Of a stretch of DNA of 64,000 nt, positions 4,423 through 30,992 are shown piece after piece; position 1 is the stretch's first letter; every line of letters starts with the position of its first letter. The notes under the pieces were generated by a model. That model saw only the letters and a list, made by a program, of their open reading frames with translations. It did no database searches and was not told the origin of the DNA. A program made the position numbers and the translations under genes. The DNA lies in assembly GCA_004017535.1 (NCBI GenBank), contig SAJS01000012.1:67501-131500 (forward strand). The letters run 5' to 3'. Origin of the DNA: Mesorhizobium sp. (GTDB lineage: Bacteria; Pseudomonadota; Alphaproteobacteria; Rhizobiales; Rhizobiaceae).

Positions 4423-7400
4423 ATGGCAACTCAGCAGGTCGCCGACGCGGGCGGTACGACTGTTTCCTTCTCCAACACGCCGCAGGCCAAGGACGACGCT
4501 TTCTACTTCTCCGAAGATTCGACCGGCGTCTTGATCCTTAACGTCCTGGCGAACGATTTGGGTGGGGCCGCCAAGCTACTCTACTCCGTCGACAATTCCA
4601 TCAGCGCGTCGACAGCGACCAAAACGCCGGCGCCGTCGGATCTGCTGATCCGCGACACCACATATTCCAGCACCAACGACAGCGCCGGACTTGCAGGAAC
4701 CACCGACACAAGCTTCCTCGGAGCGCGCATCTGGATCGCCAGCGATGGGACGATTCACTACAACACAGCCGATATCAACACGCTGCTGCAGTCGCTTGCG
4801 CAGGGCCAGGTTCTCACCGACAAGCTGACTTACGCCATTCAACTCGGCAACGGCACGCTGAGCTGGGCCACGACCACCATTCAGTTCACCGGCACCAATG
4901 ACAAGCCGCTGATCGCCGCCGCCACGCTTGCCGGCGCCGTCACCGAGGACGCCCATACCCCCACCGAGACCGCAACAGGAACGATCGCCTTCGGTGATGT
5001 CGACCTCACCGACGTGCATCTGGTTTCGGCGGTGTTCAAGAGCACCGACTATAGCGGCCAGCTCGGTTCGCTCGCCGCGGTGAAGACGACCGACACCACC
5101 GGAACCGGCACCGGCGGCCTGATCACCTGGACCTTCAGCGCCGCGGATTCGGCTCTCGACAAGCTGGCGGCCGGCCAGGTTGTGCACGAGACCTATACGG
5201 TCACGCTCGACGACCAGCATGGCGGCGTCGTCACGCGCGATGTCGTCATCACCATCACCGGCACCAACGACGTGCCGGTGATCGGCGCGGCAACACTTGT
5301 CGGCGCGGTCACCGAGGATGCCCATACCCCTACCGAGACCGCCACCGGCACCATCGCCTTCGGGGACGTCGACCTTACCGACGTGCATCTGGTCTCGGCG
5401 GTGTTCAAAAGCACCGACTATAGCGGCCAGCTCGGTTCGCTCGCCGCGGTGAAGACCACCGACACCACCGGGACCGGCACCGGCGGCCTTATCACCTGGA
5501 CCTTCAGCGCAGCGGATTCGGCTCTCGACAAGCTGGCGGCCGGCCAGGTCGTGCACGAGACCTATACGGTCACGCTTGACGACCAGCATGGCGGCGTCGT
5601 CACCCGCGATGTCGTCATCACCATCACCGGCACCAACGACGCTCCGACGATCACGGCGGCGGACACGACTGCCGCGGGCTCGGTGGTCGAGGATGCGCCG
5701 ACGACGGCTGATCCGAGCGATTCGCTCAACGCCGCCGGCACCATCGCCTTCCACGACGTCGATCTCATCGACGGCCACACCGCGACCTTCGTGGCGACGG
5801 CCGGCGAGACGGCGCTCGGCACCTTCTCGCTCGATCCGGTCAGCGAGGCGGCGGGCGCGGCCGACGGCACGCTCCAGTGGCATTATGCCCTCGACAACAA
5901 TGCCGCGCAGTATCTGGCCGCCGGCCAGAGCGTGGTCGAGCACTACACCGTGACCGTCGACGACGGCCATGGCGGCACGGTCGACCAGGTGGTGGCCATC
6001 ACCATCACCGGCACCAATGACAACCCGACGATGAGCGCGACCGCGACCGGGTCGGTGACGGAAGACACCCCGGCGGGTGCGACCGAGACCGCCTCGGGCA
6101 CGGTCAGCTTCGCCGATGTCGATCTGACCGACACCCACACGGTGAGCTCCAACTTCGTGTCGTCGACCAATGCCGGCGGCGTTCAGCTCGGCTCGCTCGT
6201 CGCGGCCAAGACGCTGGACACGTCCGGCGGCACCGGCGGGACCGGAACCTGGAACTACAGCGTCAACAACGCGGCCATCCAGTTCCTGGCGGCGGGGCAG
6301 ACGATCCAGGAGACCTACCAGGTCACGGTTGCCGACAACCATGGCGGCTCGACCAGCCAGAATGTCGTCGTCACTATCACCGGCACCAATGACAACCCGA
6401 CGATGAGCGCGACCGCGACCGGGTCGGTGACGGAAGACACCCCGGCGGGTGCGACCGAGACCGCCTCGGGCACGGTCAGCTTCGCCGATGTCGATCTGAC
6501 CGACACCCACACGGTGAGCTCCAGCTTCGTATCGTCGACCAATGCCGGCGGCCTCCAGCTCGGCTCGCTCGTCGCGGCCAAGACGCTGGATACGTCCGGC
6601 GGCACCGGCGGGACCGGAACCTGGAACTACAGCGTCAACAACGCGGCCATCCAGTTCCTGGCGGCGGGGCAGACGATCCAGGAGACCTACCAGGTCACGG
6701 TTGCCGACAACCATGGCGGCTCGACCAGCCAGAATGTCGTCGTCACCATCACCGGCACCAACGACAACCCGACGATGAGCGCGACCGCGACCGGATCGGT
6801 GACGGAAGACACCCCGGCGGGTGCGACCGAGACCGCCTCGGGCACGGTCAGCTTCGCCGATGTCGATCTGACCGACACCCATACGGTGAGCTCCAGCTTC
6901 GTATCGTCGACCAATGCCGGCGGCCTCCAGCTCGGCTCGCTCGTCGCGGCCAAGACGCTGGATACGTCCGGCGGCACCGGCGGGACCGGAACCTGGAACT
7001 ACAGCGTCAACAACGCGGCCATCCAGTTCCTGGCGACGGGTCAGACGATCCAGGAGACCTACCAGGTCACGGTGGCCGACAACCATGGCGGCTCGACCAG
7101 CCAGAACGTCGTCGTCACCATCACCGGCACCAATGACGCACCGGCCATTGACCTGGACAGTGGCACTGCGGGAACGTCGACGAGCATCAACTACACGGCC
7201 GGATCAGCTGCCACGGCCATTGCCCCATCTGCGACGGTCACGGATGTAGACTCCGCCGACTTCAATGGTGGCAAGCTCACGGTTGCATTCGCCGCAAATG
7301 GCACGTCCGCCGACCAACTGACCATCCAAAATCAGGGGACCGGCGCCGGTCAGATCGGCGTGAGCGGCAGCAGCGTCACCTATGGCGGCACGACGATCGG

Positions 7401-9450: not shown

Positions 9451-9456
9451 ACCAAA

Positions 9457-9486
9457 GGGTGAGCCGCCGGCTGAGGCGGCTCACCC
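9457..9486 (+). terminator. Perfect 12-bp hairpin between adhesin and exporter
   Basis: GGGTGAGCCGCC (9457-9468) pairs perfectly with 9475-9486 around a 6-base loop. It begins six bases after the adhesin stop and ends four bases before the first possible ATG of the exporter gene. There is no T-tract, so rather than a strong terminator it may be an mRNA-stabilising or attenuating stem that lowers exporter expression relative to adhesin. Confidence 0.7.
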
Positions 9487-9490
9487 GCAA

Positions 9491-11221
9491 ATGTCTGGCC
9501 TGACGCGTATCGAGTGGGGTTTGGAATTGAACGGCAAGCCTAAAATCGTGAGGGAAGCGCTTCTCGCCTGCCGCCGCTATTTCCTGTTCGCGGCGGTATT
9601 CAGCCTGGCGATCAATCTGCTTTACCTCGCATCCCCGCTCTACATGCTGCAGATCTACGACCGTGTCGTCACCAGCGGCAGCGAGACGACGCTGGTGATG
9701 TTGACGCTGGTGCTGCTCGCAGCCTTCCTGGCAATGGCCGGCCTCGACCTCGTGCGCGCCGCGATCCTGACGCGCGCCAGCGCCCGGCTCGACCGGCTGC
9801 TTTCGGCCAGGATCCTGGCCGCCTCGGTCGAGACGCCGTCGCTGGGTGCTGCGCAAAGCCAGCCGATCCGCGATTTCGACACGTTCCGCCAGGTGATCAC
9901 CGGCAGCGGCATCCATGCCCTGTTCGACCTGCCGTGGTCGCCCATCTATATCGGGGTCATCTTCCTTCTGCACCCCTGGCTGGGTTTCTTCGCGCTTGGG
10001 TCCTCGCTGATCCTTATCGCCATGGCGGTGCTCAACGAATACATGGTCAGGGCGCCGCTGAAGCAGGCCAACGACCTCGCCACCGCGAACTACAATTTCA
10101 CCGAGATGAGCCTGCGGAACGCGGAAGTCGTCCGCGCCATGGGCATGATCGACGGCCTCGTCCGCCGCTGGGGGCGCGACCGTGGCATGGCGCTGCGCCG
10201 GCAGGGACAGGCCAGCGACCGGGCGGCGCTGATGTCCGGGATGATCCGCTTCCTGCGCCTTACCATGCAGTCGCTGATCCTCGGCCTCGGCGCCTATCTG
10301 GTCATCGAGCGGCAGATCACCGGCGGCTCGATGTTCGCGGCGAGCCTGCTTCTGGGCAGGGGGCTGCAGCCGGTCGAGCAGATCGTCGGATTGTGGCGCA
10401 GCCTTATCCTGGCGCGGGCTGCGCTCGGAAGGGTCGAAAAGCTGCTTGACGGCGGCGCGCAAGGCGAACGTTCGTTCAACCTTCCCAAGCCCACCGGCAA
10501 GATCGCCGTCGAACAGCTTACCTTCGCCATTCCGAACCTGCAGAAGGTGCTGTTGCGCGATGTCTCGTTCAAGCTGGAGGCAGGCGAGGCGCTCGGCATC
10601 GTCGGTCCCTCCGGCGCCGGCAAGTCGACGCTCGCCCGCCACCTCGCCGGCATCATGCAGCCGAGCCGCGGCACGGTCAGGCTGGACGGCGCCGACATGA
10701 CGCAATGGGGCAGGGAAGCGCTCGGCGACCATATCGGCTATCTGCCGCAGGACATCGAGCTGTTTTCCGACACGGTGGCCGCCAACATCGGCCGCTTCAA
10801 AACCGACGTCGACCGCGAGGTGATCGAGGCCGCCCGGCTTGCCGGCGTGCATGAGATGATCATCCGCCTGGCGCAAGGCTATGAGACGCAGATCGGCGAG
10901 GGCGGCGCCGTGCTGTCGGGCGGTTACCGGCAGCGCATCGCGCTTGCGCGCGCCGTCTTCGGCACGCCGAACCTCATCGTGCTCGACGAGCCGAGCTCCA
11001 ACCTCGACGCCGACGGCGACCGCGCGCTTGCCGAATGCGCGCTGGAGCTCAAGCGTCGCGGCAGCACCGTCATCATCGTGTCGCACCGGCCCTCGACCTT
11101 GGCCAATGTCGACAAGATCCTGCTGCTCAGGGATGGCGGCGTCGAGGCCTTCGGCATGCGGAACGAGATCGTCGCGCTGCTCAATCAGCGCGCCGCGCCG
11201 ATCGCGGTGGCAACCCAATGA
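9491..11221 (+). CDS. prsD: Type I secretion permease/ATPase (PrsD/AprD type)
   Basis: A 576-residue inner-membrane ABC exporter half-molecule. The N-terminal about 300 residues hold the transmembrane domain (hydrophobic segments around 30-60, 70-90, 150-190 and 260-300). The ATPase domain follows with Walker A GPSGAGKST near 373, signature LSGGYRQRI near 475, and Walker B LIVLDEPSS near 496. The family exports RTX-like proteins with a membrane-fusion protein and an outer-membrane TolC-type channel. The first ATG (9491) lacks a ribosome site because it abuts the hairpin; in-frame TTG codons at 9521 and 9527 lie after GAGTGGGG and are possible true starts. The gene overlaps the next one by ATGA, and no outer-membrane partner is in the window. 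Confidence 0.93.
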   Translation: MSGLTRIEWGLELNGKPKIVREALLACRRYFLFAAVFSLAINLLYLASPLYMLQIYDRVVTSGSETTLVMLTLVLLAAFLAMAGLDLVRAAILTRASARLDRLLSARILAASVETPSLGAAQSQPIRDFDTFRQVITGSGIHALFDLPWSPIYIGVIFLLHPWLGFFALGSSLILIAMAVLNEYMVRAPLKQANDLATANYNFTEMSLRNAEVVRAMGMIDGLVRRWGRDRGMALRRQGQASDRAALMSGMIRFLRLTMQSLILGLGAYLVIERQITGGSMFAASLLLGRGLQPVEQIVGLWRSLILARAALGRVEKLLDGGAQGERSFNLPKPTGKIAVEQLTFAIPNLQKVLLRDVSFKLEAGEALGIVGPSGAGKSTLARHLAGIMQPSRGTVRLDGADMTQWGREALGDHIGYLPQDIELFSDTVAANIGRFKTDVDREVIEAARLAGVHEMIIRLAQGYETQIGEGGAVLSGGYRQRIALARAVFGTPNLIVLDEPSSNLDADGDRALAECALELKRRGSTVIIVSHRPSTLANVDKILLLRDGGVEAFGMRNEIVALLNQRAAPIAVATQ

Positions 11222-12558
11222 CCGATGTCGCCGCCACCTATCGCAGTCTGCCCGGCGTCGTCGACGTCGGCGCCGATGCGGACTCGATCCGGGGTCCGGT
11301 CTGGGTCGGTTTGCTCATCATTTTCGCTTTCTTCGGCGTGTTCGGCGGCTGGGCGGCGGTCGCGCCGCTCAACGGCGCCGTGCTTGCCGACGCGATGGTG
11401 AAGGTCGAAGGCAACCGCAAGAGCGTTCAGCACTTCGATGGCGGCACGGTGAAGGAGATCCGCGTGAAGGACGGCGACATCGTCAAGGCAGGCGATGTGC
11501 TGGTCGTGCTCGATGACACGCGGGCCCGTTCGGAGTTCAACCTCTACTCCCAGCAATATGCGCTGCTGCGCGCCACGGATGCCCGCATCCGCGCCGAGCT
11601 CGACGGCAGCGCGGCGGTCGCCTTTCCCAAGGACATCTCCGCCGAGCATGAGGGCTACCTGCAGGACGCGATGGCCAACCAGATCACCGACCTCGAGAGC
11701 CAGCGCGCCTCGATGGCCGGCGCCACGAAGATCCTGCAAAAGCGGATCGCCGAGCTCGAGGAGCAGATCGAGGGCAAGGAGGCGCGCGTGGAATCCTACC
11801 GCGCGCAGCTCAAGTCGACCGTGGACGAGAAGACCGGCCTGAACAAGCTGCTGAAGGCCGGCCTGACGACGCGCACGCGCATCCTGGAGCTCGACCGCTC
11901 CGCTTCCGACCTGCAGGGCCTCATTGACCAGTCGCTGGGCGAGATTGCGGGCAACCGCCAGAACAAGGCGGAATTCGAAAGCCAGATCGCGCAGCTTACC
12001 AACGAGCGTCGCGCGAAACTGTCGGCCATGTTGATCGACACCCAGTCGAGCCTTGCCGACCTGGTGCCGAAGATGTTTGCCGCGCAGGCCACCGTGGACC
12101 GCGCCGAAGTGCGCGCTCCCTATGACGGCCAGGTGATGGACTTGACGATCTTCTCGACCGGCGCGGTCGTCACCCCCGGCCAGACCATCCTCGACATCGT
12201 TCCGGCCAGGAATTCGCTGATCGTGCAAGCGCAGGTCCGGGTCGAGGACATATCCAGCCTCCGCCAGGACATGACGGCCGAAGTCCGATTTACCTCCTAT
12301 AAACAGCGCACGACACCGGTCATCCACGGCCGCGTCACTCGCATCTCGGCGGACCGCGTGACCGACGCCAAGACTGGCCTTCCATATTATGTCGCCGACA
12401 TTGCGGTGGAGCCGCGGGAACTCGCCGCGGCACCACAGATCCAGCTCTATCCCGGTATGCCGGCGCAGGTCATGATCGTGACCGAGGAACGCACCGCGTT
12501 GGATTACATTGTGGGGCCACTGACGGCTTCGCTGCACACGGCGTTCCGGCAGAAGTAG
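11218..12558 (+). CDS. prsE: HlyD-family membrane fusion protein (PrsE type)
   Basis: A 446-residue periplasmic adaptor of a type I secretion system. One N-terminal membrane segment lies near residues 25-47 (VGLLIIFAFFGVFGGWAAV), then a lipoyl-like half-motif (HFDGGTVKEIRVKDGDIV), a long coiled-coil hairpin (about 100-280), the second lipoyl half (VRAPYDGQVMDLTIF) and the C-terminal beta-barrel with a PGMPAQVMI motif. The ATG at 11218 overlaps the ATPase stop, which fixes the start; longer in-frame extensions upstream are inside the ATPase gene. It should pair with the upstream ATPase to export the giant adhesin. Confidence 0.93.
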   Translation: MTDVAATYRSLPGVVDVGADADSIRGPVWVGLLIIFAFFGVFGGWAAVAPLNGAVLADAMVKVEGNRKSVQHFDGGTVKEIRVKDGDIVKAGDVLVVLDDTRARSEFNLYSQQYALLRATDARIRAELDGSAAVAFPKDISAEHEGYLQDAMANQITDLESQRASMAGATKILQKRIAELEEQIEGKEARVESYRAQLKSTVDEKTGLNKLLKAGLTTRTRILELDRSASDLQGLIDQSLGEIAGNRQNKAEFESQIAQLTNERRAKLSAMLIDTQSSLADLVPKMFAAQATVDRAEVRAPYDGQVMDLTIFSTGAVVTPGQTILDIVPARNSLIVQAQVRVEDISSLRQDMTAEVRFTSYKQRTTPVIHGRVTRISADRVTDAKTGLPYYVADIAVEPRELAAAPQIQLYPGMPAQVMIVTEERTALDYIVGPLTASLHTAFRQK

Positions 12559-16090: not shown

Positions 16091-16736
16091 TTCAGTCGGA
16101 CTAAGCGGAATACAGGCAATTGCGCTGCCAGAGCACCCCAGTCGCGTACGCTATTTAACCTAGGCTGCATTTCTTGGGAGCCAGATTCAGGATGCGCGCA
16201 TCGGGAGCGCATTCGCGGGGGCCGCCACAGCTTCCTCTGGCCGGATTAGTTTCCGTTAAGTCGATGGGCATCCATTCCCATGACGCACCCAGAACGCTTT
16301 TTTGTTGGTCGACGCCTGATGGCAGTTTCGTCAGTACCCTTCGCCGAGCAGCAGAGTTGTGGAAAACAGCCTTTTCACAACTCTTAGCAGTGAATCCAGC
16401 CTATATTAGTTACGTCAGAGCAAACGGAAAGCACATGGGCGGTAATCTATGTTTGATGACAACGAGGCGGCGGACACCGCTGCCGATTGGGGCAAGTTGA
16501 TCGCGCTAGGTGTAGCGCCCGGGAGCGTCACCAGGGGAGTCAGCTTAAACGCGTTCGACAAGCCTGACCCTGAACCAAATGAATAGCCACGGTTTGCGGC
16601 TTCTAGTCACCGCGCATGGGCGATCAGGCGCCCAGCAGTGCGGCGCTTCCAAGTGGGAGCGTGTTCAGAGCGCTCCTGGTTTTTCTAAGTTTGGGTGAAC
16701 TGGGACACTCGTGAATTTCAACAAGTTGGGGTCAAT
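16091..16736 (+). other. Gene-free stretch before the helicase module
   Basis: About 640 bases with no convincing gene. A 108-codon open frame at 16174-16500 has no ribosome site and no protein-like features. The stretch is likely promoter DNA for the following two genes plus decayed sequence. Confidence 0.4.
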
Positions 16737-17591
16737 ATGAGTGGACACATATTGTTTGTCGACGACGATGAGGACATTCGGCAAGGTGACGTGATCCGCC
16801 GTTTTAATTCTGCTGATCGCATTTCGGCATCATATGGTTTTATCATTACAGCTGACTGCGACATTGCACAGAAGAAAACTGGAGACCGCTTTACATGGCT
16901 GGAAGTCATTCCAGCGGCTCAATATCTCGAAGAATTTTGGGCTACTGAGCAATTTAGGCGTATAGCTGATAGAAACCTGAAGACCGCATGTGAGGGTCTG
17001 AACAGCAAAATCAAGCGATCCGAACTGGGATTGTCTCTGCTTGACGATGGCGCACTTCGAGCTTGGTTGGCGGAAGCCGATGCTGATGCCATCCTCACGG
17101 CCATTGGTGGCAAATCAGACGTCAAACTTCGATCCCAACTGGCATGCATTCGATTGGCCCTCGGGTTTGACAGCTCAGGCTCACGTGTGAAAGACCTACA
17201 GCAGGCTTGGACCTTGCTTGGTCGCGATCAGAAGGGCCAGCAGTCGGCGATTAAAGAAGCCTTTGATCCTGACCGGGGCTTTCCTGATTTTGTTCTGATT
17301 CCGGAATTGCCAGCAACCGACGGATACGGGTTCGTCATTCTGCTCCGGGCCATTTCAATGATCCGGGCAGATGGGCTCTTCAGGTCAGAGACGGAAGCTC
17401 GCATCAACGGAAAACCAGAAGCATTTCACCGTATAGGACGATTTACAGACGGCTTGCGATTTTCAGTCGCCCAGAAGCTAGCGTTTCTCTTCTCTCGCAT
17501 TGGCATGCCAAAGAAATTCGAAGACGCATGTGACGCAGCCACCGAATTGCTCGTGGAACTCGTATATAAAGAAGCCGGAGAAAAGATATGA
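16737..17591 (+). CDS. Unknown partner of the helicase (GDVI...DCDI protein)
   Basis: Not recognised. The 284-residue product begins MSGHILFVDDDEDIRQGDVI and has GFIITADCDIAQ at about 34-45. This looks like a small beta-barrel or phosphoesterase-like N-terminal part with a conserved Cys-Asp pair, but no family can be named. The start at 16737 is chosen because GGGG lies suitably upstream; longer GTG/TTG starts lack support. The VDDDED opening superficially recalls a response regulator, but no phospho-receiver pattern follows. The stop overlaps the helicase start by ATGA, so the two are almost certainly one functional unit, and the gene composition is less GC-rich than the flanking metabolic regions. 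Confidence 0.65.
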   Translation: MSGHILFVDDDEDIRQGDVIRRFNSADRISASYGFIITADCDIAQKKTGDRFTWLEVIPAAQYLEEFWATEQFRRIADRNLKTACEGLNSKIKRSELGLSLLDDGALRAWLAEADADAILTAIGGKSDVKLRSQLACIRLALGFDSSGSRVKDLQQAWTLLGRDQKGQQSAIKEAFDPDRGFPDFVLIPELPATDGYGFVILLRAISMIRADGLFRSETEARINGKPEAFHRIGRFTDGLRFSVAQKLAFLFSRIGMPKKFEDACDAATELLVELVYKEAGEKI

Positions 17592-19807
17592 GTACTGAAT
17601 TTGTTATAATCGACGAAGACGCCTTAGGCGCTCTCGATGCGGCGCTGATAGAAGATTCATGGTTCTCCGATTTCAATATACCAAGAAACGCGAATGGTCT
17701 TCGACGGGTGCAGATCTCAAATTTCACCTATATTTTATCCGAGTATGCATCTCTTGAGTCAGGATTGCTTGTCATCAAAACAGGAAAGGAGGGAATATTC
17801 GCGAGAGTTTCAAAGCCAAGATCTGCGTTCGAGCGCATCATGCGTGTAGCCCTGAGGCAATTCGACAGGAACATCACACTGCCCGTTTCCTGGCAGCCCT
17901 ACCATGATGGCTCGCTGCTTTCTGTGTATGCTGAGCCGTCGAGCCGTAAAATGCCGCACAGAATTTACTTCGATCAGGCTCCATGCGGCACGCCCAATCT
18001 GTTCGCTTTCGGCGTGACTGATGCGCCCCAAGCGCTGGGCACAGTTCCAATTGATCTCGCCGGCTTCAAGGCTTCGATTGAAGGCCTCCTGGAGGCTCTA
18101 CTGGAAGAGGCACCGCAGTCAGAAGTTGTAGGCAACTTTGGCATCTTGCTGAGCGCGCCGTTGGGGGTTGACCTCGCCGGCAGTGGAACCCTGCAAGACT
18201 GGTACGAGCGCAAGCTCAGCGCCGAGCAGATTCGGTTTGTCGACCAACCACATGATCGGCCGATAAGATTGCGTGGAGCAGCCGGGACCGGCAAAACCCA
18301 GGCGATGGTAGTAAAATGCTTGAAGGATCTCTATGCCGACGCCGACGCGGGCGGCGACAAGACATTCGCATTCCTCACACATAGTGCCGCGCTGGCACAC
18401 GAAGTCGTGCGCGGTATGTTTTTTGCACTCGACCCCTCCGAGAGATGGACTGGCCTCAAGACGCCAGCGGGGCGGCCCAAGCTGTGGATTGGGACGCTGT
18501 ATGAACTCGCCCAGGAACAGCTCAACTATGAAAGAAAGGGCCTGAAGCCCTTGTCACTCGATGGGCGGGACGGGAGAGAATTGCAGCGCCTTTTGATCCA
18601 GGATGCCATTGAGGAGGTGAAGCGCAGCCCACGAATCGCGCTTGGCATTCTAAGAGACTCTCCCGCGATGGCATCACGCATCGAGAGTCAAGAAATGCGT
18701 CCCGCTCTCGTTGAAGAATTGATGAACGAATTCGCTTGCTCGCTCGATGCTGAGAATATTCGCAAAGGAACCCCTGCCTCGGAAAAGTACATCAACGGCA
18801 ACCGGGAGGCCTGGCAGATGTCACTCCCCTCGCCTGATGATCGCAAAGTCGTTTTAGAGATACATGAGTCATACCAAGGACGGCTTCGTAACGAGCGATT
18901 ACTGAGCATGGATCAGATGATTGCAGACTTTGGTAGGTATCTGACAACTCACGAGTGGAACCAGCTGCGCGACATCACTGGGTTCGATCTGATATTCGTA
19001 GATGAGTACCATTACTTTACAAGAGTAGAGGCGATGATATTGCAAAACCTTTTCGCTTCGAGGGCTGAACATGTCGGTCGGTGGCCGCTAATTATGGCGT
19101 ATGACCTTAAGCAAAGTACAAATGACGCTGCCCTAGGTGGCGGTCTGGATCGCTTCAGAAACCCGGGAGTCGGAGAGTCGGTTCCTGTCGACTTGAAGCA
19201 GGTATATCGTTCCACCCCGCAGATAGCGTCTTTTCTAAGCGATCTGGACGCGTCTTTCCCAGCCATCGACTTGGAGGGGGAATTCGTAACATATGGAGCG
19301 ACTTCCAGCACCACCGATGGGGACCGGCCCGTAGTCGCCGAATTCGACACAAACATACAGCTTATCGACGAGGCGCTGAATAAAGCGAGCAGCATTGCCC
19401 GCACGCTGGATGGCGGAGGTAGTCAGGTTGCTATTCTATGCATGAATGAGGAGCTGTTTGACACCTATCGAAATGCGGGCCGAACAAAAGAGAAAATGGT
19501 GGCAGTTACCTCTAGAGAGGATCTTAGGGAACTTCGTTATGCTAAGAGCCGGTGCGTATTCAGCATGCCCGAGTACGTAGCGGGACTTCAATTTGACACG
19601 GTCTTACTCATCCACGTCGATCAAGTTGACCTTTCGGGTGAGTATTTGAGCCAGGGCGCGCGACGGCGCTATGTCTCTCGCGCCTATCTAGGAGCGAGCA
19701 GAGCTGCGAGGCGCCTTTTCATAGCGTCTTCGGTCGAACGCGGTGGCTTCAGTCAAATCCTGCGGGGTCCAATCGCCAGTGGTAGCTTGCAAAAGGAATC
19801 TTTCTGA
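17588..19807 (+). CDS. Superfamily 1 (UvrD/Rep-like) helicase of a putative defence module
   Basis: A 739-residue protein with all main SF1 motifs: Q-motif LSAEQIRFV near 210, Walker A GAAGTGKT at 230-237, Walker B VDEYHYF with DEYH at 472-475, motif III-like LIMAYDLKQS near 501-510, motif IV QVYRSTPQI with Arg541, motif V SMPEYVAGLQFDTVLL near 659-673 and motif VI YLGASRAARRLFIA near 700-713. The first about 200 residues precede the motor domain and resemble no known domain. The family unwinds or translocates on DNA/RNA using ATP. It is coupled by ATGA to the preceding unknown gene and followed by a hairpin. Its placement between AbiV and CBASS genes suggests a defence role, but this pairing does not match a system I can name. 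Confidence 0.85.
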   Translation: MSTEFVIIDEDALGALDAALIEDSWFSDFNIPRNANGLRRVQISNFTYILSEYASLESGLLVIKTGKEGIFARVSKPRSAFERIMRVALRQFDRNITLPVSWQPYHDGSLLSVYAEPSSRKMPHRIYFDQAPCGTPNLFAFGVTDAPQALGTVPIDLAGFKASIEGLLEALLEEAPQSEVVGNFGILLSAPLGVDLAGSGTLQDWYERKLSAEQIRFVDQPHDRPIRLRGAAGTGKTQAMVVKCLKDLYADADAGGDKTFAFLTHSAALAHEVVRGMFFALDPSERWTGLKTPAGRPKLWIGTLYELAQEQLNYERKGLKPLSLDGRDGRELQRLLIQDAIEEVKRSPRIALGILRDSPAMASRIESQEMRPALVEELMNEFACSLDAENIRKGTPASEKYINGNREAWQMSLPSPDDRKVVLEIHESYQGRLRNERLLSMDQMIADFGRYLTTHEWNQLRDITGFDLIFVDEYHYFTRVEAMILQNLFASRAEHVGRWPLIMAYDLKQSTNDAALGGGLDRFRNPGVGESVPVDLKQVYRSTPQIASFLSDLDASFPAIDLEGEFVTYGATSSTTDGDRPVVAEFDTNIQLIDEALNKASSIARTLDGGGSQVAILCMNEELFDTYRNAGRTKEKMVAVTSREDLRELRYAKSRCVFSMPEYVAGLQFDTVLLIHVDQVDLSGEYLSQGARRRYVSRAYLGASRAARRLFIASSVERGGFSQILRGPIASGSLQKESF

Positions 19808-21099: not shown

Positions 21100-21858
21100 T
21101 CAAGCAACGGCTTCGTCCGATAGAGTCAGGACCACGAGAATCTCCTCATCTGGCAGGAGAAACGACTGCTCCGACACCTCGTGGCGATCCGCGCCCCTGA
21201 AATCGAACCAGGCTTCGGCTGGCATTTTGCGCGGAAAATTCTGCTCGGTCGCGCCCTGCAGCAGCATTTCGGCGGTGAAGGTCTGCGGATCCAGCATCTG
21301 CACCGGCATCCACCACGGGTGGATCATCCGCGCTCTTTCGAACCAGCGCCGCTGCATCGCCTTGTTGTAGCAGGCGATGACCATCGGGAATCTGTTCGAC
21401 AAGGTCATCTTAAGGAGCGTCGCGGTTAGGCTCGCGCAAAACTCGTCGGAGAGCTGCCGGGCGGCAACGAGTGTCGGCTTCTTGATTTTTTGAAGTCGCG
21501 GCGTGAGCAGATAGTCCGGCAGGATTAGATCAGAAGCAAATGAATCGGCCTGCCTCTCCGGATTGATCGCCGAACTCGCATAATTACCTATGTCGTGCTT
21601 GTCGCAAAACAGCACGCGGCCGCGATGGTGGTGCCAATGCCCAAGCTCGTGCGCGAGTGAAAAACGTCGGCGGCGTTCAGGGCTGCGGCTGTTGACGGAG
21701 ATCACCGCCTTTCGCTTCGAGCCAATGATGCGTGCCTCGCAGCCGTTGAGCGGCCGATAGTTGACGGCAGCTCCTTGTGTCCATGCGATGGCTTCAAGAT
21801 CGATGTCCTTGGGATCAGCGATGCCGAGCGATTGCAGCAAACTTTCTGCTGGCGTCAT
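21100..21858 (-). CDS. ImmA/IrrE-family metallopeptidase
   Basis: A 252-residue zinc peptidase. RFSLAHELGHWHHH (residues about 65-78) gives the HExxH site with His70, Glu71 and His74, and Glu101 in the stretch NPERQADSFASDLI is the likely third ligand, as in ImmA/IrrE proteases. Residues 120-252 form a helical substrate-recognition part. Members cleave repressors in response to damage or phage signals, and the related CapP protease controls some CBASS operons by cleaving the CapH repressor. Here it is the last gene of an ATGA-coupled operon with the acidic protein and a sigma-like protein, divergent from the CBASS genes. No XRE repressor is seen beside it, so its target is unknown. Confidence 0.88.
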   Translation of the reverse strand: MTPAESLLQSLGIADPKDIDLEAIAWTQGAAVNYRPLNGCEARIIGSKRKAVISVNSRSPERRRRFSLAHELGHWHHHRGRVLFCDKHDIGNYASSAINPERQADSFASDLILPDYLLTPRLQKIKKPTLVAARQLSDEFCASLTATLLKMTLSNRFPMVIACYNKAMQRRWFERARMIHPWWMPVQMLDPQTFTAEMLLQGATEQNFPRKMPAEAWFDFRGADRHEVSEQSFLLPDEEILVVLTLSDEAVA

Positions 21859-22286
21859 TCTTTCGGCGCCTCGGGATCCTCAGCCTCTAGCGCCTCGAGC
21901 TGCGCGAGATCATCCAGGGCGCCGTCTTCGTCGTCGGAAGAGAGATGTTTGCCTTTGCGCGCAGCCATCGTCATGCTCTGGCCGTCGCCGCCAGAACGCA
22001 TCCGATCGAATTTACTGCGTAGCGCCGCCCGATCCGGGAAACGGGTCGTCGTGGGCTTGCTGTGGAAGTCGGCCATCGCCTGTTTGGCCCGTTCCAGACG
22101 CAACCGCCCCGCCATCTTTTTGGCTTCCTGCGCCAAAGCTTCCATCTCGACAGCGACCTTCGTGGGATCCAGACCTAGCAGAGCCAGTTCCTCGTCGATT
22201 TCATCATCAGAGGCCGCGAGAATGGATTCATCGATCGCGTCGCTCAGGTCCCGAAGTTCATCGACCGATTTGCGCTTGCTGCTCAT
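21855..22286 (-). CDS. Acidic helical protein between sigma-like and peptidase genes
   Basis: A 143-residue protein of unknown function. The ATG at 22286 overlaps the preceding stop by ATGA; an in-frame ATG nine bases further up is also possible. The N-terminus has a helix rich in Asp/Glu (residues about 5-40, DLSDAIDESILAASDDEIDEELALLGLD), the middle is basic, and the end (about 110-143) is very acidic. The last codons overlap the ImmA-type start by ATGA. Such a strongly charged, probably disordered protein between a DNA-binding protein and a protease could be the cleavable anti-sigma or substrate of the protease; this is inference only. Confidence 0.65.
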   Translation of the reverse strand: MSSKRKSVDELRDLSDAIDESILAASDDEIDEELALLGLDPTKVAVEMEALAQEAKKMAGRLRLERAKQAMADFHSKPTTTRFPDRAALRSKFDRMRSGGDGQSMTMAARKGKHLSSDDEDGALDDLAQLEALEAEDPEAPKE

Positions 22287-22882
22287 AACGGCCATCCTTT
22301 CGGATATTTCTTGGCCACTGCGCGTCTGATCCGTTTCATAATGTAGTCGTACCCTGCCTGGGTGATGCCGAGCTCGTCGCGCAGCGACCTGCCCTTTTTG
22401 CCATCAACGATCGCCATGATCGTCAACTGCGCCTCGTCGTCCCCCTCAAGTAGCTTGTAGACTTCATCGACCACATCCGCGGCCTCCTTCTCGAGAAGTG
22501 TCTGTTCGGGATCGAGCTGGTCAGCGGCGATCTGCAGTTCGACGACGACACCGGAGCTGTCGGTTCTGCTGAGGGGAACCTGGCGGGACAGAGCCTTGCG
22601 TCGATGCGAGGCAATGCTCCGCATCGACTGCGCGAGGAAGGCAATAAACGACGCCTCGACCGGGCAGCGCCGTTCACCGACGATCACCTGGCAAAGGGCC
22701 TCCTGATAGAGCATCCCAGGACCAAAATCCGTGCCGTCGCGCCGTCTTTCCTCGATCAGGCGAAGCTTCTTGCGTTCGGCCGCCGAGAGCGAATCGAGCT
22801 TTCTCAGCACCTCTTCAGCGGCAAGGTGCCCGTTTTCCGGCTGACCAATGTCGCCGGCGAGAGGAGCGCTCGCTTCATTCAT
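22283..22882 (-). CDS. Sigma-70-like / HTH regulator
   Basis: A 199-residue DNA-binding protein. Residues about 57-100 (MLYQEALCQVIVGERRCP...AFLAQSMRSIASHRRK) resemble sigma region 2 and its DNA-binding helix, and 165-195 (GRSLRDELGITQAGYDYIMKRIRRAVAKK) resemble region 4 with an HTH. The length fits an ECF-type sigma factor, though the region-2 core is degenerate, so it might be a sigma-like transcription factor without polymerase activity. It is the first gene of a three-gene ATGA-coupled operon facing the CBASS operon across a 179-bp intergenic region holding an inverted repeat. It is a good candidate for the regulator of both sides. Confidence 0.7.
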   Translation of the reverse strand: MNEASAPLAGDIGQPENGHLAAEEVLRKLDSLSAAERKKLRLIEERRRDGTDFGPGMLYQEALCQVIVGERRCPVEASFIAFLAQSMRSIASHRRKALSRQVPLSRTDSSGVVVELQIAADQLDPEQTLLEKEAADVVDEVYKLLEGDDEAQLTIMAIVDGKKGRSLRDELGITQAGYDYIMKRIRRAVAKKYPKGWPL

Positions 22883-22918
22883 GGCCTGACTGCCATCCTA
22901 TGCCGACGTGCTACGCGA

Positions 22919-22964
22919 TTTCGGACAAAAAATTCGCCTCAATTGAAAAGAATTGAGTCCGAAA
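22919..22964. promoter_or_regulatory. Compound inverted repeat between sigma-like and CBASS operons
   Basis: TTTCGGAC (22919-22926) pairs with GTCCGAAA (22957-22964), and inside it CTCAATT (22938-22944) pairs with AATTGAG (22951-22957) around GAAAAG. The arrangement sits in the divergent promoter region and could be an operator or two nested sites for the sigma-like protein, or a hairpin in the leader of either transcript. Confidence 0.5.
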
Positions 22965-23061
22965 CGCGCCCCCTGCCCGGCATTCTCGAACAGATGCCCG
23001 GAAAGCCGACTCATTAGGCTCCGAGCCAGGCCGAGAATATTCGAAAAAGGCAGGAAAGACG

Positions 23062-24252
23062 ATGAATTACCTCGATCCGCAGCTTCAGGCACGCCAGACC
23101 CAGATTGTGGAGGTCCTCGAACTGGTCTGCCAGTCGCTAGAGCTCACCGACGCGCAGTTCGCCCTCGCCCGGCAGCGCTATGAAGGCGTGGGCGCCTGCC
23201 TTGCCGGCTCCGACGATCCAGTGCTGCGCGCCATTTCGATCTATCTCCAGGGCTCGACAGCGCTGCGCACCACAGTTCGCCCGGTCGGCATCAACGAGCA
23301 TGATGTCGACCTGGTGGCCCACGTGTCCAATGTCGACGTGGCGATCTCGCCAGCAGCACTCAAGAAGGCCATCGGCGATTGTTTGCGCGCCAATGGCAAC
23401 TACGCGCCCCTTCTTGAAGAGATGTCGCGGTGCTGGCGCCTCAGCTACGCCAACGAGTTCCACATGGACATTACCCCCTCGATCCCCAACCCTGACTGCC
23501 GGTCAGGTGGCGAGCTGGTTGCAGACAAGACGCTGAAGACTTGGAAGCCCTCGAATCCGAAGGGCTACAAGCGCCTGTTCGAGGAGCGCGCCAAGCTGGT
23601 CCCTGTCATCCGGCTACGTAAGCGCATTGCCAAGGACGGCGGCCACGCCAGCATCGAGCCCTATCCGGAGGCGGGAGGCTTCAAGGGCATCCTGCGGCGC
23701 ACCGTCCAGATCGCCAAGCGCCATCGCGATATCATGTTTGTCGATGAGCCCGATCTGGCGCCGCTGTCGGTGATCGTTACCACGCTCGCGGCACGCAGCT
23801 ACGAATGGTGCGTGCGCAATCATGAGTATGAGAACGAGTTGGAGCTTGTGCTCGATGTCATCGATCACATGCCCGACACGGTCGAGGCCATCCAAATCGA
23901 TGGGCGGACTCAGTGGTTCATCTGGAACGAGACCACCGCTGGCGAGAATTTCGCCGAAAAGTGGAACCGCCATCCGGAGCGGGCCGAGAGCTTCTATCGC
24001 TGGCATCGCGCGTTCCGCGCGGATCTGGCGCAACTGGTGGCCGTCAGCGGCCTCGATCGGCTCGGCGAAGCGCTCAAGGGGCTGTTCGGGTCGCGTCCGG
24101 CAACTGCGGCCATGGACTGGCTGACCAATCGCGTCACTGCGGCGCGCAGCGGCGGCAATCTGTACCTCGCCCCCAAGGTCGGCCTGAGCGTTGGCGCATT
24201 GCCGGCGTCGACCGCAGTACGGGCCAACACGTTCTACGGAAGCAATGGCTAA
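23062..24252 (+). CDS. CBASS CD-NTase (cGAS-like nucleotidyltransferase)
   Basis: A 396-residue nucleotidyltransferase of the cGAS/DncV-like group. The active site is visible: GS at 64-65 in QGSTALRTTV, the metal-binding pair Asp81/Asp83 in EHDVDLVAHV, and the third acid Asp136 in EFHMDITPSI. Residues 200-300 form the helical core. In CBASS it makes a cyclic oligonucleotide on phage sensing, which activates the effector. A good AGGAAAG site precedes the start. It is the first gene of the CD-NTase/E2/patatin operon. The nucleotide product cannot be told from the sequence. Confidence 0.92.
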   Translation: MNYLDPQLQARQTQIVEVLELVCQSLELTDAQFALARQRYEGVGACLAGSDDPVLRAISIYLQGSTALRTTVRPVGINEHDVDLVAHVSNVDVAISPAALKKAIGDCLRANGNYAPLLEEMSRCWRLSYANEFHMDITPSIPNPDCRSGGELVADKTLKTWKPSNPKGYKRLFEERAKLVPVIRLRKRIAKDGGHASIEPYPEAGGFKGILRRTVQIAKRHRDIMFVDEPDLAPLSVIVTTLAARSYEWCVRNHEYENELELVLDVIDHMPDTVEAIQIDGRTQWFIWNETTAGENFAEKWNRHPERAESFYRWHRAFRADLAQLVAVSGLDRLGEALKGLFGSRPATAAMDWLTNRVTAARSGGNLYLAPKVGLSVGALPASTAVRANTFYGSNG

Positions 24253-24255
24253 GTC

Positions 24256-24699
24256 ATGTTGATCGGACGACGTAAGCCTCTGACAGCGGCGCAGCAATTC
24301 ATCAATCTGCGCAGCAATCCTGTCAGCCAAGGAACTGGCCGGCTCCGCGGAGGGGTGATCACTTGGCGTTACAGCGCGTCGCCCTCGCCACTGAGCCGGG
24401 CTTACGGCATCCGGATCGACTTCAAGCAAGGAGGCGTGCCGGGGATTTTTGTCGAGGCCCCAGACCTGCACGTCCTTGCTGGCGAACGCCGCATCCCCCA
24501 CCTTTATCAACAGACGCCGCCGAGGCTCTGTCTCTATCTGCCTCGCATCTTTGAATGGCAGTCGTGGATGCGGCTCGACCTGACGATCGTGCCTTGGACC
24601 GCCCTGTGGCTCTTCTACTTCGAGGAGTGGCTCGTCTCCGACGACTGGAAGGGTGGCGGCATGCACCCCGGCGAAAACGACAATGAGGAGGCCGCATGA
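24256..24699 (+). CDS. E2-like protein of a short type II CBASS
   Basis: A 147-residue protein with the hallmarks of bacterial E2-like conjugating proteins of E2-only CBASS operons: the single cysteine Cys92 lies in RLCLYLP, followed by EWQSWMRLDLTIVPWTALWLFYFEEWL and WKGGGMHP. In the known short type II systems such an E2 acts on the CD-NTase to prime it, without E1 or a JAB-type peptidase; none of these two is encoded nearby. The gene starts three bases after the CD-NTase stop and overlaps the patatin gene by ATGA. The identity is based on motif memory, not on a database search. Confidence 0.8.
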   Translation: MLIGRRKPLTAAQQFINLRSNPVSQGTGRLRGGVITWRYSASPSPLSRAYGIRIDFKQGGVPGIFVEAPDLHVLAGERRIPHLYQQTPPRLCLYLPRIFEWQSWMRLDLTIVPWTALWLFYFEEWLVSDDWKGGGMHPGENDNEEAA

Positions 24700-25706
24700 G
24701 TGCGCCCTTGCCAGAACCCACAAGCGGAGATCGGTTCTACCGTATCTTGTCGCTCGATGGCGGGGGGATACGCGGCGTCTTTCCTGCCGCCTTCCTGGCT
24801 CGTCTGGAAGAGCATCTCGACCATCCGATCGGGCGATATTTCGATCTCATCGCCGGCACCTCGACCGGCGGCATCATCGCGATCGGGCTCGGCCTCGGTC
24901 TGTCGGCGCGCGACATCCTCAGGCTCTATATCGAGCAAGGTCCGGCAATCTTCGGCCAAGAACGCGGCCCGCTCGAAAATTGGATTCGCCAGAAACTGCG
25001 CGGCTTGGCGCACCTGGTTGTCACCAAGCATTCCTCTGCGCCCCTACAACGCGCCCTCGAAGACGTTCTGGGTCCTCGCAAGCTGGGCGAAAGTCGCACG
25101 CGACTTGTCATCCCCGCCTGGCATCCCGTCTTGGAGCGCGTTTACATTTACAAGACGGCACATGACCCCAGGCTCGAGACGGACTACAGACAGCCCGCCA
25201 TCGACGCCGCGATGGCCACGGCCGCCGCTCCAACGTTCTTGAAGCCGCATATGACGGAATCTGCGGTCGAGCTTGTCGATGGCGGCGTCTGGGCCAACAA
25301 TCCGATCGGTGTGGCCGCGATCGAGGCGACCGGGATGCTTGGCTGGCCGGGGGACAGACTCAAGATATTGTCGATCGGCACGATTTCCGAACCCGGAAAC
25401 CTTCCCATGCTAAGGGGTAAACTGCCGATGGCCGCTTCGGTTGCCCGCCTCTTCATGGCAGGTCAAGCGCATAGCGCGCTCGGCACCGCAAAGATTATCA
25501 CCGGCGATGTCCACGAGCGTAAAGCGATCTGGCGCATAGACCAGATCGCGCCGGAGGGGCGCTACACCCTGGACAATGCCTCTCGCATTTCCGAGATGCG
25601 TGACCGTGCTTTTGCCGAGGCGCGTGAACAGCTACCGGAACTCAGACGTCACTTCTTTAGTGGCCCGGCCGCTGAATTCGTGCCGTGCCACTCCCTGCCC
25701 ACCTGA
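24696..25706 (+). CDS. capV: Patatin-like phospholipase effector (CapV)
   Basis: A 336-residue patatin-domain lipase. DGGGIRG at 21-27 gives the oxyanion hole, GTSTG at 54-58 the nucleophile Ser56, and VDGG near 194-197 the catalytic Asp195. In CBASS, CapV is activated by the cyclic nucleotide made by the CD-NTase and degrades membrane phospholipids, killing the infected cell. It is coupled by ATGA to the E2-like gene. No signal peptide or membrane segment, consistent with a cytoplasmic effector acting on the inner membrane. Confidence 0.92.
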   Translation: MSAPLPEPTSGDRFYRILSLDGGGIRGVFPAAFLARLEEHLDHPIGRYFDLIAGTSTGGIIAIGLGLGLSARDILRLYIEQGPAIFGQERGPLENWIRQKLRGLAHLVVTKHSSAPLQRALEDVLGPRKLGESRTRLVIPAWHPVLERVYIYKTAHDPRLETDYRQPAIDAAMATAAAPTFLKPHMTESAVELVDGGVWANNPIGVAAIEATGMLGWPGDRLKILSIGTISEPGNLPMLRGKLPMAASVARLFMAGQAHSALGTAKIITGDVHERKAIWRIDQIAPEGRYTLDNASRISEMRDRAFAEAREQLPELRRHFFSGPAAEFVPCHSLPT

Positions 25707-28328: not shown

Positions 28329-28428
28329 AGAGCCTCTCAAACTCCGTTTTCGCGCGGCCGCTTAAGCTATTGTGGAATATAACGATTGCATCTGGCAGAT
28401 TTCGGGTAGTGGCTCAGCACACCAACGA

Positions 28429-28630
28429 CTCACCCACGACACCTACTCGGCCGAGCGCGCGGCGCTGTCGAACAACGCCCAGATCATCACCATGGGCGCG
28501 CGCGTGATCGGCCGAGTAGCTGGCGAAGTCGATCGCCGATGCCTTCCTCAAGGAGACGTTCGATCCACAAGGGCGCTCGGCCGGCAATGTCGCCGCCATC
28601 GACCAGGTCGACGCACAGTACAACGGACGC
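28429..28630 (+). pseudogene. rpiB: Fragment of rpiB/eryI in inverse orientation
   Basis: About 200 bases encode residues corresponding to the last about 65 of the RpiB at 30537-30992, including [28 protein letters not shown], but on the opposite strand. A net one-base insertion after ARVIG destroys the frame. The base identity to the intact gene is high with scattered changes, so it derived from a related rpiB, perhaps from another ery locus. Confidence 0.9.
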
Positions 28631-28703
28631 CAAACTTTCGAGCACCGGATCGAGGACGTCGGAGCCTCGCTGGACAATACGAGGTGATCGCCCACGAAAG
28701 AGG

Positions 28704-29312
28704 TTAAGCGGCTTTCATTGCGTTGCAGATTTCTTCGACCAGCATTGCGGCCGAGATCGAGCCCGGGTCCGGGTGGCCAAGTGAGCGCTCCCCGAGACGC
28801 GCGGCGCGCCCGACAGTGGCGACCATGTCGCGAGTCGCTTCCGCGCCCCGGCGGGCGGCGGCGGCTACGGCATCGACATTCTGGCCGTTGATTGCCGCAT
28901 CCGCGGCCGGAGCCCAGGCATCGAGCATCGTCTTCTGGCCGGGTTCCGCCTTGCCACGCTGGGCGATGCCGTCGCGCATGGCCGCAATGACGGTTCGCAA
29001 CTCGGCTCTCGGCATGGATGCGCGCGGACCCGCCGCCTTGCCGGCGCGCAGAAGCGCGGTCGCGTAGAGCGGTCCCGAGGAGGCGCCGACCGCGTTGAGA
29101 AAGCCTTTGGCGGCGGCGTTGAACAAATCCTGCAGCGTGCCCTCGGCGTCCTGGGCCGCGTCGGCCGCGGCCTTCATGCCTTGTTCCATGGCGATACCGT
29201 GGTCGGCGTCCCCGATCACCCCATCGAGCGCGCAGAGCTTGTCGCGCTCGGCGGCCATCCGCGCGGAGAAGGCACTGAAAAGGGCTTTCAAATCTCCAGT
29301 CCCGAATTCCAT
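28704..29312 (-). CDS. dhaL: Dihydroxyacetone-kinase-type subunit L (ATP-binding)
   Basis: A 202-residue helical kinase subunit. The motif [10 protein letters not shown] (residues about 30-40) supplies the Asp residues that bind the magnesium-nucleotide, with [11 protein letters not shown] (about 74) and [10 protein letters not shown] (about 123) also typical. In the dihydroxyacetone kinases this domain hands phosphate to the substrate bound by DhaK. The gene starts five bases after dhaK. It sits downstream of the ery genes and may phosphorylate dihydroxyacetone or a tetrulose such as erythrulose; the sequence cannot decide. Confidence 0.9.
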
Positions 29313-30536: not shown

Positions 30537-30992
30537 TCAGCGGACGTTGTATTTGGCGTCGACCTGGTCGATGGCGGCGACATTGCCGGCCGAGCGCCCC
30601 CGCGGATCGAAGGTCTCCTTGAGGAATGCATCGGCGATCGACTTTGCCAGCTCGGGCCCGATCACGCGCGCGCCCATGGTGATGATCTGGGCGTTGTTCG
30701 ACAGCGCCGCCCGCTCGGCCGAATAGGTGTCGTGGGTGAGCGCCGCGCGAATGCCCGGCACCTTGTTGGCCGAGATGCAGACCCCGATGCCAGTGCCGCA
30801 GATCAGGATCGCGCGGTCATATTTGCCGGCCAGCAGATCAGTGGCGACGCGATCTGAAAGATTGGCATAGAAGGGATCGGGGCCGGCGTCCGTGCGAGAC
30901 ACGTCCGATACCTCGTGCTTGTCCTTCAGGTGATCGGCCAGAATCTTGGCCAGGGCTTCGCCGGCGCTGTCGCCTGCTATCGCGAGCTTCAT
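30537..30992 (-). CDS. eryI: RpiB-like D-erythrulose-4-phosphate isomerase (EryI)
   Basis: A 151-residue RpiB-family sugar-phosphate isomerase with the catalytic cysteine Cys65 in [13 protein letters not shown] and the [10 protein letters not shown] loop. In the ery pathway of Brucella the RpiB homologue converts D-erythrulose 4-phosphate to D-erythrose 4-phosphate, which then enters the pentose phosphate pathway. The start has a strong AAGGAGA ribosome site. It follows eryH by 12 bases in the ery operon. Confidence 0.93.

Follow-up and report, generated by a model that had tools for sequence, protein, structure and literature searches.

Genes and intergenic units at the locus

The 64,000-nucleotide stretch of Mesorhizobium sp. 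DNA analysed here (assembly GCA_004017535.1, contig SAJS01000012.1, positions 67,501 to 131,500; hereafter the window) contains two divergent operons. One comprises the genes for a sigma-like protein, a small charged protein (the middle protein) and a zinc peptidase of the CapP type, together referred to as the trio, while the other is a cyclic oligonucleotide-based antiphage signalling system (CBASS) with a cGAS/DncV-like nucleotidyltransferase (CD-NTase), an E2-like protein and a patatin-like phospholipase (Table 1). An earlier note, made from the letters alone, had described three ATGA-coupled genes for a sigma-like, a charged and an ImmA/IrrE-type protein, back-to-back with a CD-NTase/E2/patatin CBASS, and all of them were confirmed at their place, with profiles that agree. 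Both the sigma/middle and the middle/peptidase junctions are ATGA overlaps; a second in-frame ATG lies upstream of the middle gene at 22295, the 143 residues of its product being counted from the ATG at 22286, within the ATGA. On the opposite side, CD-NTase, E2-like protein and effector form a single operon, as in E2-only CBASS with a patatin effector. The CBASS_lipase match of the patatin-like protein exceeds the NCBIfam cut-off, and the E2-like protein displayed no Pfam match at E<=1.

Table 1. Features of the trio and of the operons facing it; positions refer to the window unless a locus handle is given.
Feature	Position	Strand	Basis
ECF-type (extracytoplasmic function) sigma factor (sigma2 + sigma4), 199 amino acids, predicted	22283..22882	-	profile, AlphaFold2 model, Foldseek
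Middle charged protein, 143 amino acids, proposed anti-sigma factor with proposed CapP-cut tail	21855..22286	-	alignments
Conserved tail segment SMTMAARKGKHLSS of the middle protein, residues 104-117, coding stretch	21936..21977	-	counted from ATG 22286
CapP-type M78 (ImmA/IrrE) zinc peptidase, 252 amino acids, HExxH kept	21100..21858	-	Pfam PF06114, PADLOC capP
Promoter-like unit towards the sigma gene, GTCCGAAA-N13-CGGCAT	22900..22926	-	motif searches
Promoter-like unit towards the CBASS operon, GTCCGAAA-N13-CGGCAT, identical spacing	22957..22983	+	motif searches
CD-NTase (CBASS cyclase), 396 amino acids	23062..24252	+	SMODS 6.9e-12; PADLOC Cyclase 1.4e-112
CBASS E2-like protein, 147 amino acids	24256..24699	+	PADLOC E2 1.8e-52
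CBASS patatin-like phospholipase effector, 336 amino acids	24696..25706	+	NCBIfam CBASS_lipase 4.2e-67, Patatin 1.1e-28
Cas2-like/DUF2188 module, examples in other loci	L015:4216-4732, L019:4844-5359, L007:2185-2701, L092

Conservation and distribution of the trio

One genome per species was scanned with the peptidase alignment, and the best 80 of 194 loci were kept. Sigma, middle and peptidase genes occurred in this order in 76 of these 80 loci (with some frames broken in L040 and L103), so that the co-occurrence of the three families, which the earlier note had proposed to look for, was recovered from the peptidase alone, and a chance arrangement is disfavoured. Among the other four loci, L071 and L093 are cut by a contig end, and L085 and L094 hold the peptidase alone. 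A plasmid search with the sigma protein returned 17 records, 12 of which were examined, the other five being Cereibacter records with match values equal to those of an examined one. Nine of the 12 (L012-L016, L019, L020, L022, L023) carry sigma, middle and peptidase genes in order, and the remaining three (L017, L018, L021) have no peptidase beside the sigma gene; the middle protein alone found nothing on plasmids. A phage origin was also considered and discarded, as viral contigs scanned with the peptidase alignment yielded three weak relatives, in whose loci neither a sigma nor a middle gene was found.

The unit is rare, since the sigma alignment at E<=1e-8 matched 7 of 385 genomes of the class. 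Across the phylum, the peptidase alignment at E<=1e-30 matched 3 of 398 genomes, the match in one being a short piece with an internal stop, and the sigma protein at E<=0.001 matched 9 of 297 genomes of the order. Within the genus no match was found in 8 genomes (peptidase, E<=1e-30) or in 7 (sigma, E<=0.001), which fits a horizontal arrival of the trio in its own genome.

The 76 genomic loci, 10 more from plasmids and whole genomes and the window make up the 87 trio loci used below. L005, L006 and L007 (the same as L053, L076 and L092) and L026 (the same as the window) were left out of all counts, and L071, L085, L093 and L094 out of the 87. L040, where the peptidase frame is in pieces, enters the 87 and the 86-locus letter-free test described below but not the 85-locus promoter counts; L105, with a short upstream region, enters the 87 and neither promoter count.

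Mirrored promoter-like units between the operons

The two units found between the operons of the window are mirrored and point outwards, the minus-strand one (22926-22900) ending 17 nucleotides before the sigma ATG at 22882, and the plus-strand one (22957-22983) preceding the CBASS ATG at 23062. Their recurrence was evaluated by a letter-free search, which prescribes no bases and scores how well two 8-bp boxes and the gap between them are repeated in the two outward directions (maximum score 16). Scores of at least 15 were reached in 34 of 86 loci versus 0 of 1029 control tiles from the same contigs, and scores of at least 14 in 53 of 86 loci versus 30 of 1029 tiles, the window itself scoring 14. 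The letters emerging from the units are TGTCCG on the -35 side and GC[AC]TA on the -10 side. The pattern TCCG-N17/18-GC[AC]T, defined with the data already in view, matched both outward directions in 55 of 85 loci and at least one of them in 74, with no pair in 30. Resampled sequences gave a mean of 0.11 loci with both directions (maximum 1 in 200 runs) and 5.8 on average with at least one, and real control tiles, which are mostly coding rather than intergenic DNA, gave 3 and 260 of 3207, respectively.

Inspection of 51 divergent pairs indicated that the -10 variant is equal on both sides in all of them (38 A/A and 13 C/C) and the spacing in 47, the distance between the two TCCG boxes ranging from 10 to 53 bp; since close relatives are present among these pairs, the Fisher values are not independent tests. 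In 49 pairs the first in-frame ATG or GTG of the sigma gene follows the -10 box at a distance of 1-35 nucleotides (7 or fewer in 12), and the stretch inspected held none in the other two. Thus, with a rigid unit whose -10 side is at the gene and with copies that co-vary, the mirrored units are best read as two putative promoters served by one sigma factor, and not as one fixed palindrome.

In the own genome, the loose pattern TCCGAA-N15/16-GGCAT had 23 matches versus 1 in a reversed control, and the strict pattern had 4. Two of the latter are the window pair, the third lies inside a coding frame (L157:1424-3013) and the fourth, with a longer spacer, is upstream of a frame in L154 that we take to be FtsK-like. 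A global regulon was rejected on these strict counts and the switch is read as local, though regulation of other genes through weaker sites is possible.

The sigma-like protein

The TIGR02937 sigma70-ECF match of the sigma-like protein stays below the curated cut-off (30.9 vs 42.9 bits). Its AlphaFold2 model, with a mean predicted local distance difference test (pLDDT) value of 86.5, retrieves ECF sigma factors as top Foldseek rows in the PDB (sigmaE, SigH, AlgU and SigW), with the EcfG-type RpoE further down. In the structure alignments residues 21-117 align with sigma2 and residues 118-199 with sigma4, and a profile of 47 relatives compared with the PDB matches SigH at 4.2e-5 across both domains. 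With sigma2 and sigma4 and neither sigma1 nor sigma3, the protein has the domain composition of ECF factors, and sequence profiles and the predicted fold identify it as an ECF-type sigma factor with both domains.

The CapP-type peptidase

The window peptidase matches Pfam M78 (PF06114) at 6.7e-13 and PADLOC capP at 5.8e-59 over residues 3-246, that is, over its full length, and is therefore an M78 zinc peptidase with the full-length profile match expected for CapP. H70, E71, H74 and E101 are invariant in a 14-member alignment, whose members are 37-66% identical to the window peptidase. Neither a Lon nor a SAVED domain was matched in it by Pfam or PADLOC, and PADLOC RmrA-type and NCBIfam antitoxin models weakly share the peptidase domain. 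In a quick tree of 108 rows, 87 trio and 2 lone peptidases stand opposite 19 CapH-linked rows with a Shimodaira-Hasegawa-like approximate likelihood ratio (SH-aLRT) support of 99; two of these 19 rows are the same protein, and sampling was unequal, trio rows coming mainly through the trio peptidase alignment and the others through the capH model.

The own genome also encodes a canonical CapH/CapP pair (L002/L110, C1:20126-21021; capP 4.2e-73, capH 6.9e-36), with an XRE protein of 106 amino acids and a peptidase of 307, adjoined by a CD-NTase-like frame (L025). CapH-type and sigma-type control may therefore coexist in one cell.

The middle protein and its tail

The model of the middle protein is helical (mean pLDDT 83.9) and gave no PDB fold match at E<=0.001, known anti-sigma folds included. 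Nothing credible came from searches of solved structures with the single protein or with its profile; the top row of the profile search was chain 6m6z_A (1.4e-3), which we take to be a designed helical protein. A conserved feature is an AxR motif in the tail, located in the less certain C-terminal part of the model: A108 and R110 are invariant in all 67 aligned middle proteins and A109 is kept in at least 90% of them, the alignment consisting of 66 of the 74 usable genomic loci (near-copies by sigma having been removed) and the window.

The sole family match of the window middle protein is a weak, C-terminal one to PADLOC capH (1.2e-4), a model that 11 of 14 middle proteins match weakly (5.8e-8 at best) and that may have been built from proteins like them. 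Apart from this match, Pfam, NCBIfam and PADLOC thresholds gave no family match for an XRE partner in the sigma-like or the middle gene. An origin of the middle protein as a split-off CapH tail was rejected, since profile comparison of 15 canonical CapH with the 67 middle proteins yielded a probability of 0.7% and a tail-only profile matched none of the 15.

Sister loci in which no CapP was found serve as a natural comparison for the two parts of this protein. In L017, L152 and L153 the gene after sigma retains only the N-terminal part (2.5e-4, 8.9e-8 and 1.8e-6), with no tail match, and in L021, whose plasmid record holds no CapP, a weak tail match (0.0055) shows AFK for AAR and the N-terminal part was undetected. 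Absence of CapP refers to the plasmid records in L017, L018 and L021, so that a chromosomal CapP would escape the search, and to the annotated features of the fetched stretch in L152 and L153. The middle gene is moreover co-encoded with sigma in 76 of the 80 genomic loci, apart from the three loci keeping its N-terminal part without CapP. Because these sister loci lose or alter the tail, the simplest reading is that in the loci seen the N-terminal part accompanies sigma and the tail accompanies CapP. The sigma-side promoter unit is present in L017, L021, L152 and L153 and absent in two other sigma loci without CapP, L008 and L018.

Two arrangements among these loci deserve mention. At L018:5863-9602 a sigma gene of the family precedes a helicase gene, whose product begins with 55 residues resembling the N-terminal part of the middle protein (8.7e-6), so that a defence helicase may itself hold the sigma there. 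In the Bradyrhizobium plasmid loci L152:4044-5731 and L153:3966-5794, sigma and a short middle protein face a small frame, followed by a gene annotated as 'rRNA adenine N-6-methyltransferase family'.

Operons facing the trio

Seed searches (E<=1e-4) in the 87 loci assigned 21 to CD-NTase (in pieces in L030-L032), 22 to ThiF/multiubiquitin (by weak matches, 8e-7 to 2e-5, in L036, L045, L051, L060 and L062) and 19 to a Cas2-like/DUF2188 pair, leaving 25. In 18 of these, one or two facing genes were scanned with profiles, the scan covering loci other than L040, L056, L070, L073, L103 and L105; L039, by seed search only, faces a patatin-like frame. The scan added to CBASS a cyclase in L037 and a TRIP13 gene with a SAVED endonuclease effector in L046, to the ThiF or BilD group L033, L034, L042, L043 and L084, and as a new class the Pycsar cyclases of L052, L058 and L066. 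Single cases were QatA (L049), an OLD/GajA-like ATPase (L041), PDC-S06 (L050), beta (L102) and an HNH protein (L091), and the facing gene of L023 had no defence match.

The final partners of the 87 loci are CBASS in 23, ThiF/Bub/Bil-like operons in 27 (Bub denoting multiubiquitin/E2/ThiF operons as in L021, with Pfam Multi_ubiq and Prok-E2_E), the Cas2-like/DUF2188 pair in 19, Pycsar in 3, Tle1-like genes in 2, Qat, OLD-like, PDC-S06 and beta in 1 each, and others in 9. Mirrored pairs of units were present in 16 of 23 CBASS, 16 of 19 Cas2-like/DUF2188, 3 of 3 Pycsar, 9 of 27 ThiF-type and 1 of 2 Tle1 loci, in the single OLD-like, PDC-S06 and beta loci, in 0 of 1 Qat and in 3 of 9 others, 7 of which entered the count. 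On the peptidase tree, at least 25 changes of partner class are counted among 78 labelled loci. With partners so varied and so often exchanged, the comparison of loci identifies the trio as a portable control unit, not belonging to CBASS.

Two kinds of partner stand out. A 92-residue protein (MIYAINYDLK...) and/or a DUF2188 protein (PADLOC PDC-S16) faces the trio in 19 of the 87 loci without CBASS or ThiF, and in 5 more with them. The former, which had no Pfam match, is referred to here as Cas2-like. The pair is possibly an unnamed defence module. Tle1-like phospholipase genes (PF09994) occupy the defence position at L029:5221-6792 and L038:3794-5092, where they are possible effectors outside secretion systems.

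A proposed protease-released sigma switch

We infer that the trio works as an autonomous switch controlling transcription of the defence operon opposite. The sigma factor would recognise a dedicated promoter with TGTCCG at -35, GC[AC]TA at -10 and 17-18 bp between TCCG and GC[AC]T. In the resting cell, the N-terminal helical part of the middle protein would hold the sigma factor, acting as an anti-sigma factor. DNA damage would activate CapP, single-stranded DNA being the reported activator of its relatives in the available text of PMC13373217 and PMC10904395, and CapP would then cut the middle protein near its AxR tail. The freed sigma factor, together with RNA polymerase, would fire both promoters, switching on the CBASS genes as well as the trio itself, in a positive feedback. 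Given the conserved gene order, the sigma fold, the mirrored units and the association of the tail with CapP in the loci seen, we regard this scheme as a whole as probable.

Its main rival uses the same components in the opposite sense. A sigma-like protein devoid of polymerase activation would form with the middle protein a bipartite repressor on the mirrored boxes, repression being relieved by the CapP cut. CapH/CapP, CapW and CapK/CapS do act by de-repression, according to the available text of PMC13373217, and both the inverted arrangement of the boxes and the weak capH matches of the middle proteins would suit a repressor; nonetheless, sigma2 and sigma4 are both retained, the units are rigid -35/-10 elements with the -10 side towards the gene and a variable distance between them, and a consensus scan of 22850-23100, in itself a weak test, detected no sigma-70-like promoter to be blocked. 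We therefore consider co-repression unlikely. CapP might also act on the sigma factor itself, or degrade it for shut-off after the response, with the middle protein as an adaptor presenting it. The joint presence of the three genes in nearly all loci would fit such a three-body complex, and the cleavage site is only presumed; yet the CapP-associated segment is in the middle protein, and sigma relatives without an adjoining CapP align with the others over their length, so that we give this adaptor role little credit.

The trio could finally be an independent system that happens to lie beside CBASS, either a second defence system, as the earlier note had also contemplated, or a toxin-antitoxin system. 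This agrees with the 64 of 87 trio loci without recognised CBASS and with the RmrA-type and antitoxin models that weakly share the peptidase domain. On the contrary, none of the three proteins has an effector or toxin family match in Pfam, PADLOC or NCBIfam, 54 of the 87 loci face CBASS, ThiF/Bub/Bil-like, Pycsar or Qat operons, many of them across mirrored units, the units lie between the trio and whichever operon faces it, and the partner class has changed repeatedly; an independent system is accordingly very improbable. The finding that the note had named as fatal to its own proposal, a trio occurring without CBASS and unrelated in function, is thus borne out in its first half only, since 31 of those 64 loci face ThiF/Bub/Bil-like, Pycsar or Qat operons and 19 the Cas2-like/DUF2188 pair. 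The note's suggestion of a different switch holds better, the peptidase being CapP by profile but accompanied by an ECF-type sigma factor where CapH/CapP has an XRE repressor, with a third protein between them.

If the protease-released sigma switch is true, its logic would be opposite to repressor control and would include positive feedback, and a private promoter that the housekeeping polymerase may not read would keep a killer system tightly off. As the trio is portable and its promoter recognisable, both would also provide a direct way to find unknown defence operons, candidates so reached being the Cas2-like/DUF2188 pair (19 of 87 loci) and the Tle1-like phospholipases (2 of 87).

Neighbouring features of the window

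Near the CBASS operon, positions 16695-19807 hold a 298-residue gene that matched no family and, after it, a gene for a UvrD-like helicase (PF00580 at 1.2e-7, with weak DRT/Gabija matches); the two may be another defence pair. Positions 28372-28707 seem to repeat part of the gene at 30537-30992, presumably RpiB-like, with a shared stretch of 26 protein letters, possibly as an insertion scar. At 4423-12558, a 1675-residue repeat protein is followed by two genes, which we take to be an ABC exporter and an HlyD-like protein, an arrangement like that of a type I secretion locus.

Comparison with known systems

CapH/CapP, reportedly first described by Lau et al. in 2022, is among the closest references for the trio. 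The two share a CapP-type M78 peptidase placed beside CBASS and other immune operons. In CapH/CapP, as presented in the available text of PMC13373217 and PMC10904395, the small XRE repressor CapH is the protein that CapP cuts, whereas the trio has a predicted ECF-type sigma factor as DNA-binding partner and, as the likely substrate, a middle protein separate from it. Their peptidases also fall on separate branches of the quick tree, and profile comparison reveals no homology between CapH and the middle protein.

The regulatory logic finds a parallel in CalpL/CalpT/CalpS of a type III CRISPR (clustered regularly interspaced short palindromic repeats) system, where, in the portion available of PMC11417357, a protease cuts an anti-sigma factor and an ECF sigma factor is the third part. 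The same three-part logic of protease, anti-sigma and ECF sigma factor in phage defence is proposed for the trio by analogy, the likeness being one of description and not of sequence comparison with CalpT or CalpS. On the contrary, the protease described there is of Lon type, with a SAVED domain binding cyclic tetra-adenylate (cA4), while the trio has an M78 zinc peptidase and, as proposed, another trigger. The calp genes are part of a CRISPR system, the trio being found next to several kinds of defence operon.

CapK with CapS, and CapW, likewise form compact regulatory cassettes adjoining CBASS, Bub, Bil and other immune operons, although in the available text of PMC13373217 they are kinase/STAS or WYL repressors, without sigma factor or protease. 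SiwR of mycobacteria, a WYL-domain protein, is a damage-responsive regulator reported as activator of adjacent genes, but it is a single protein, and the accessible part of PMC10693628 names neither a sigma nor an anti-sigma factor nor a protease. IrrE/PprI-DdrO of Deinococcus relies, much as proposed for the trio, on a single-stranded-DNA-activated M78 peptidase that cuts a transcription regulator, with DdrO as its one repressor substrate and no sigma factor described in the available text of PMC10904395. Among the literature matches listed, judged mostly by title and opening of the abstract, none described a sigma factor combined with CapP, an earlier mention being possible. Set against these systems, the trio is best read as CapP-type control joined to sigma/anti-sigma control.

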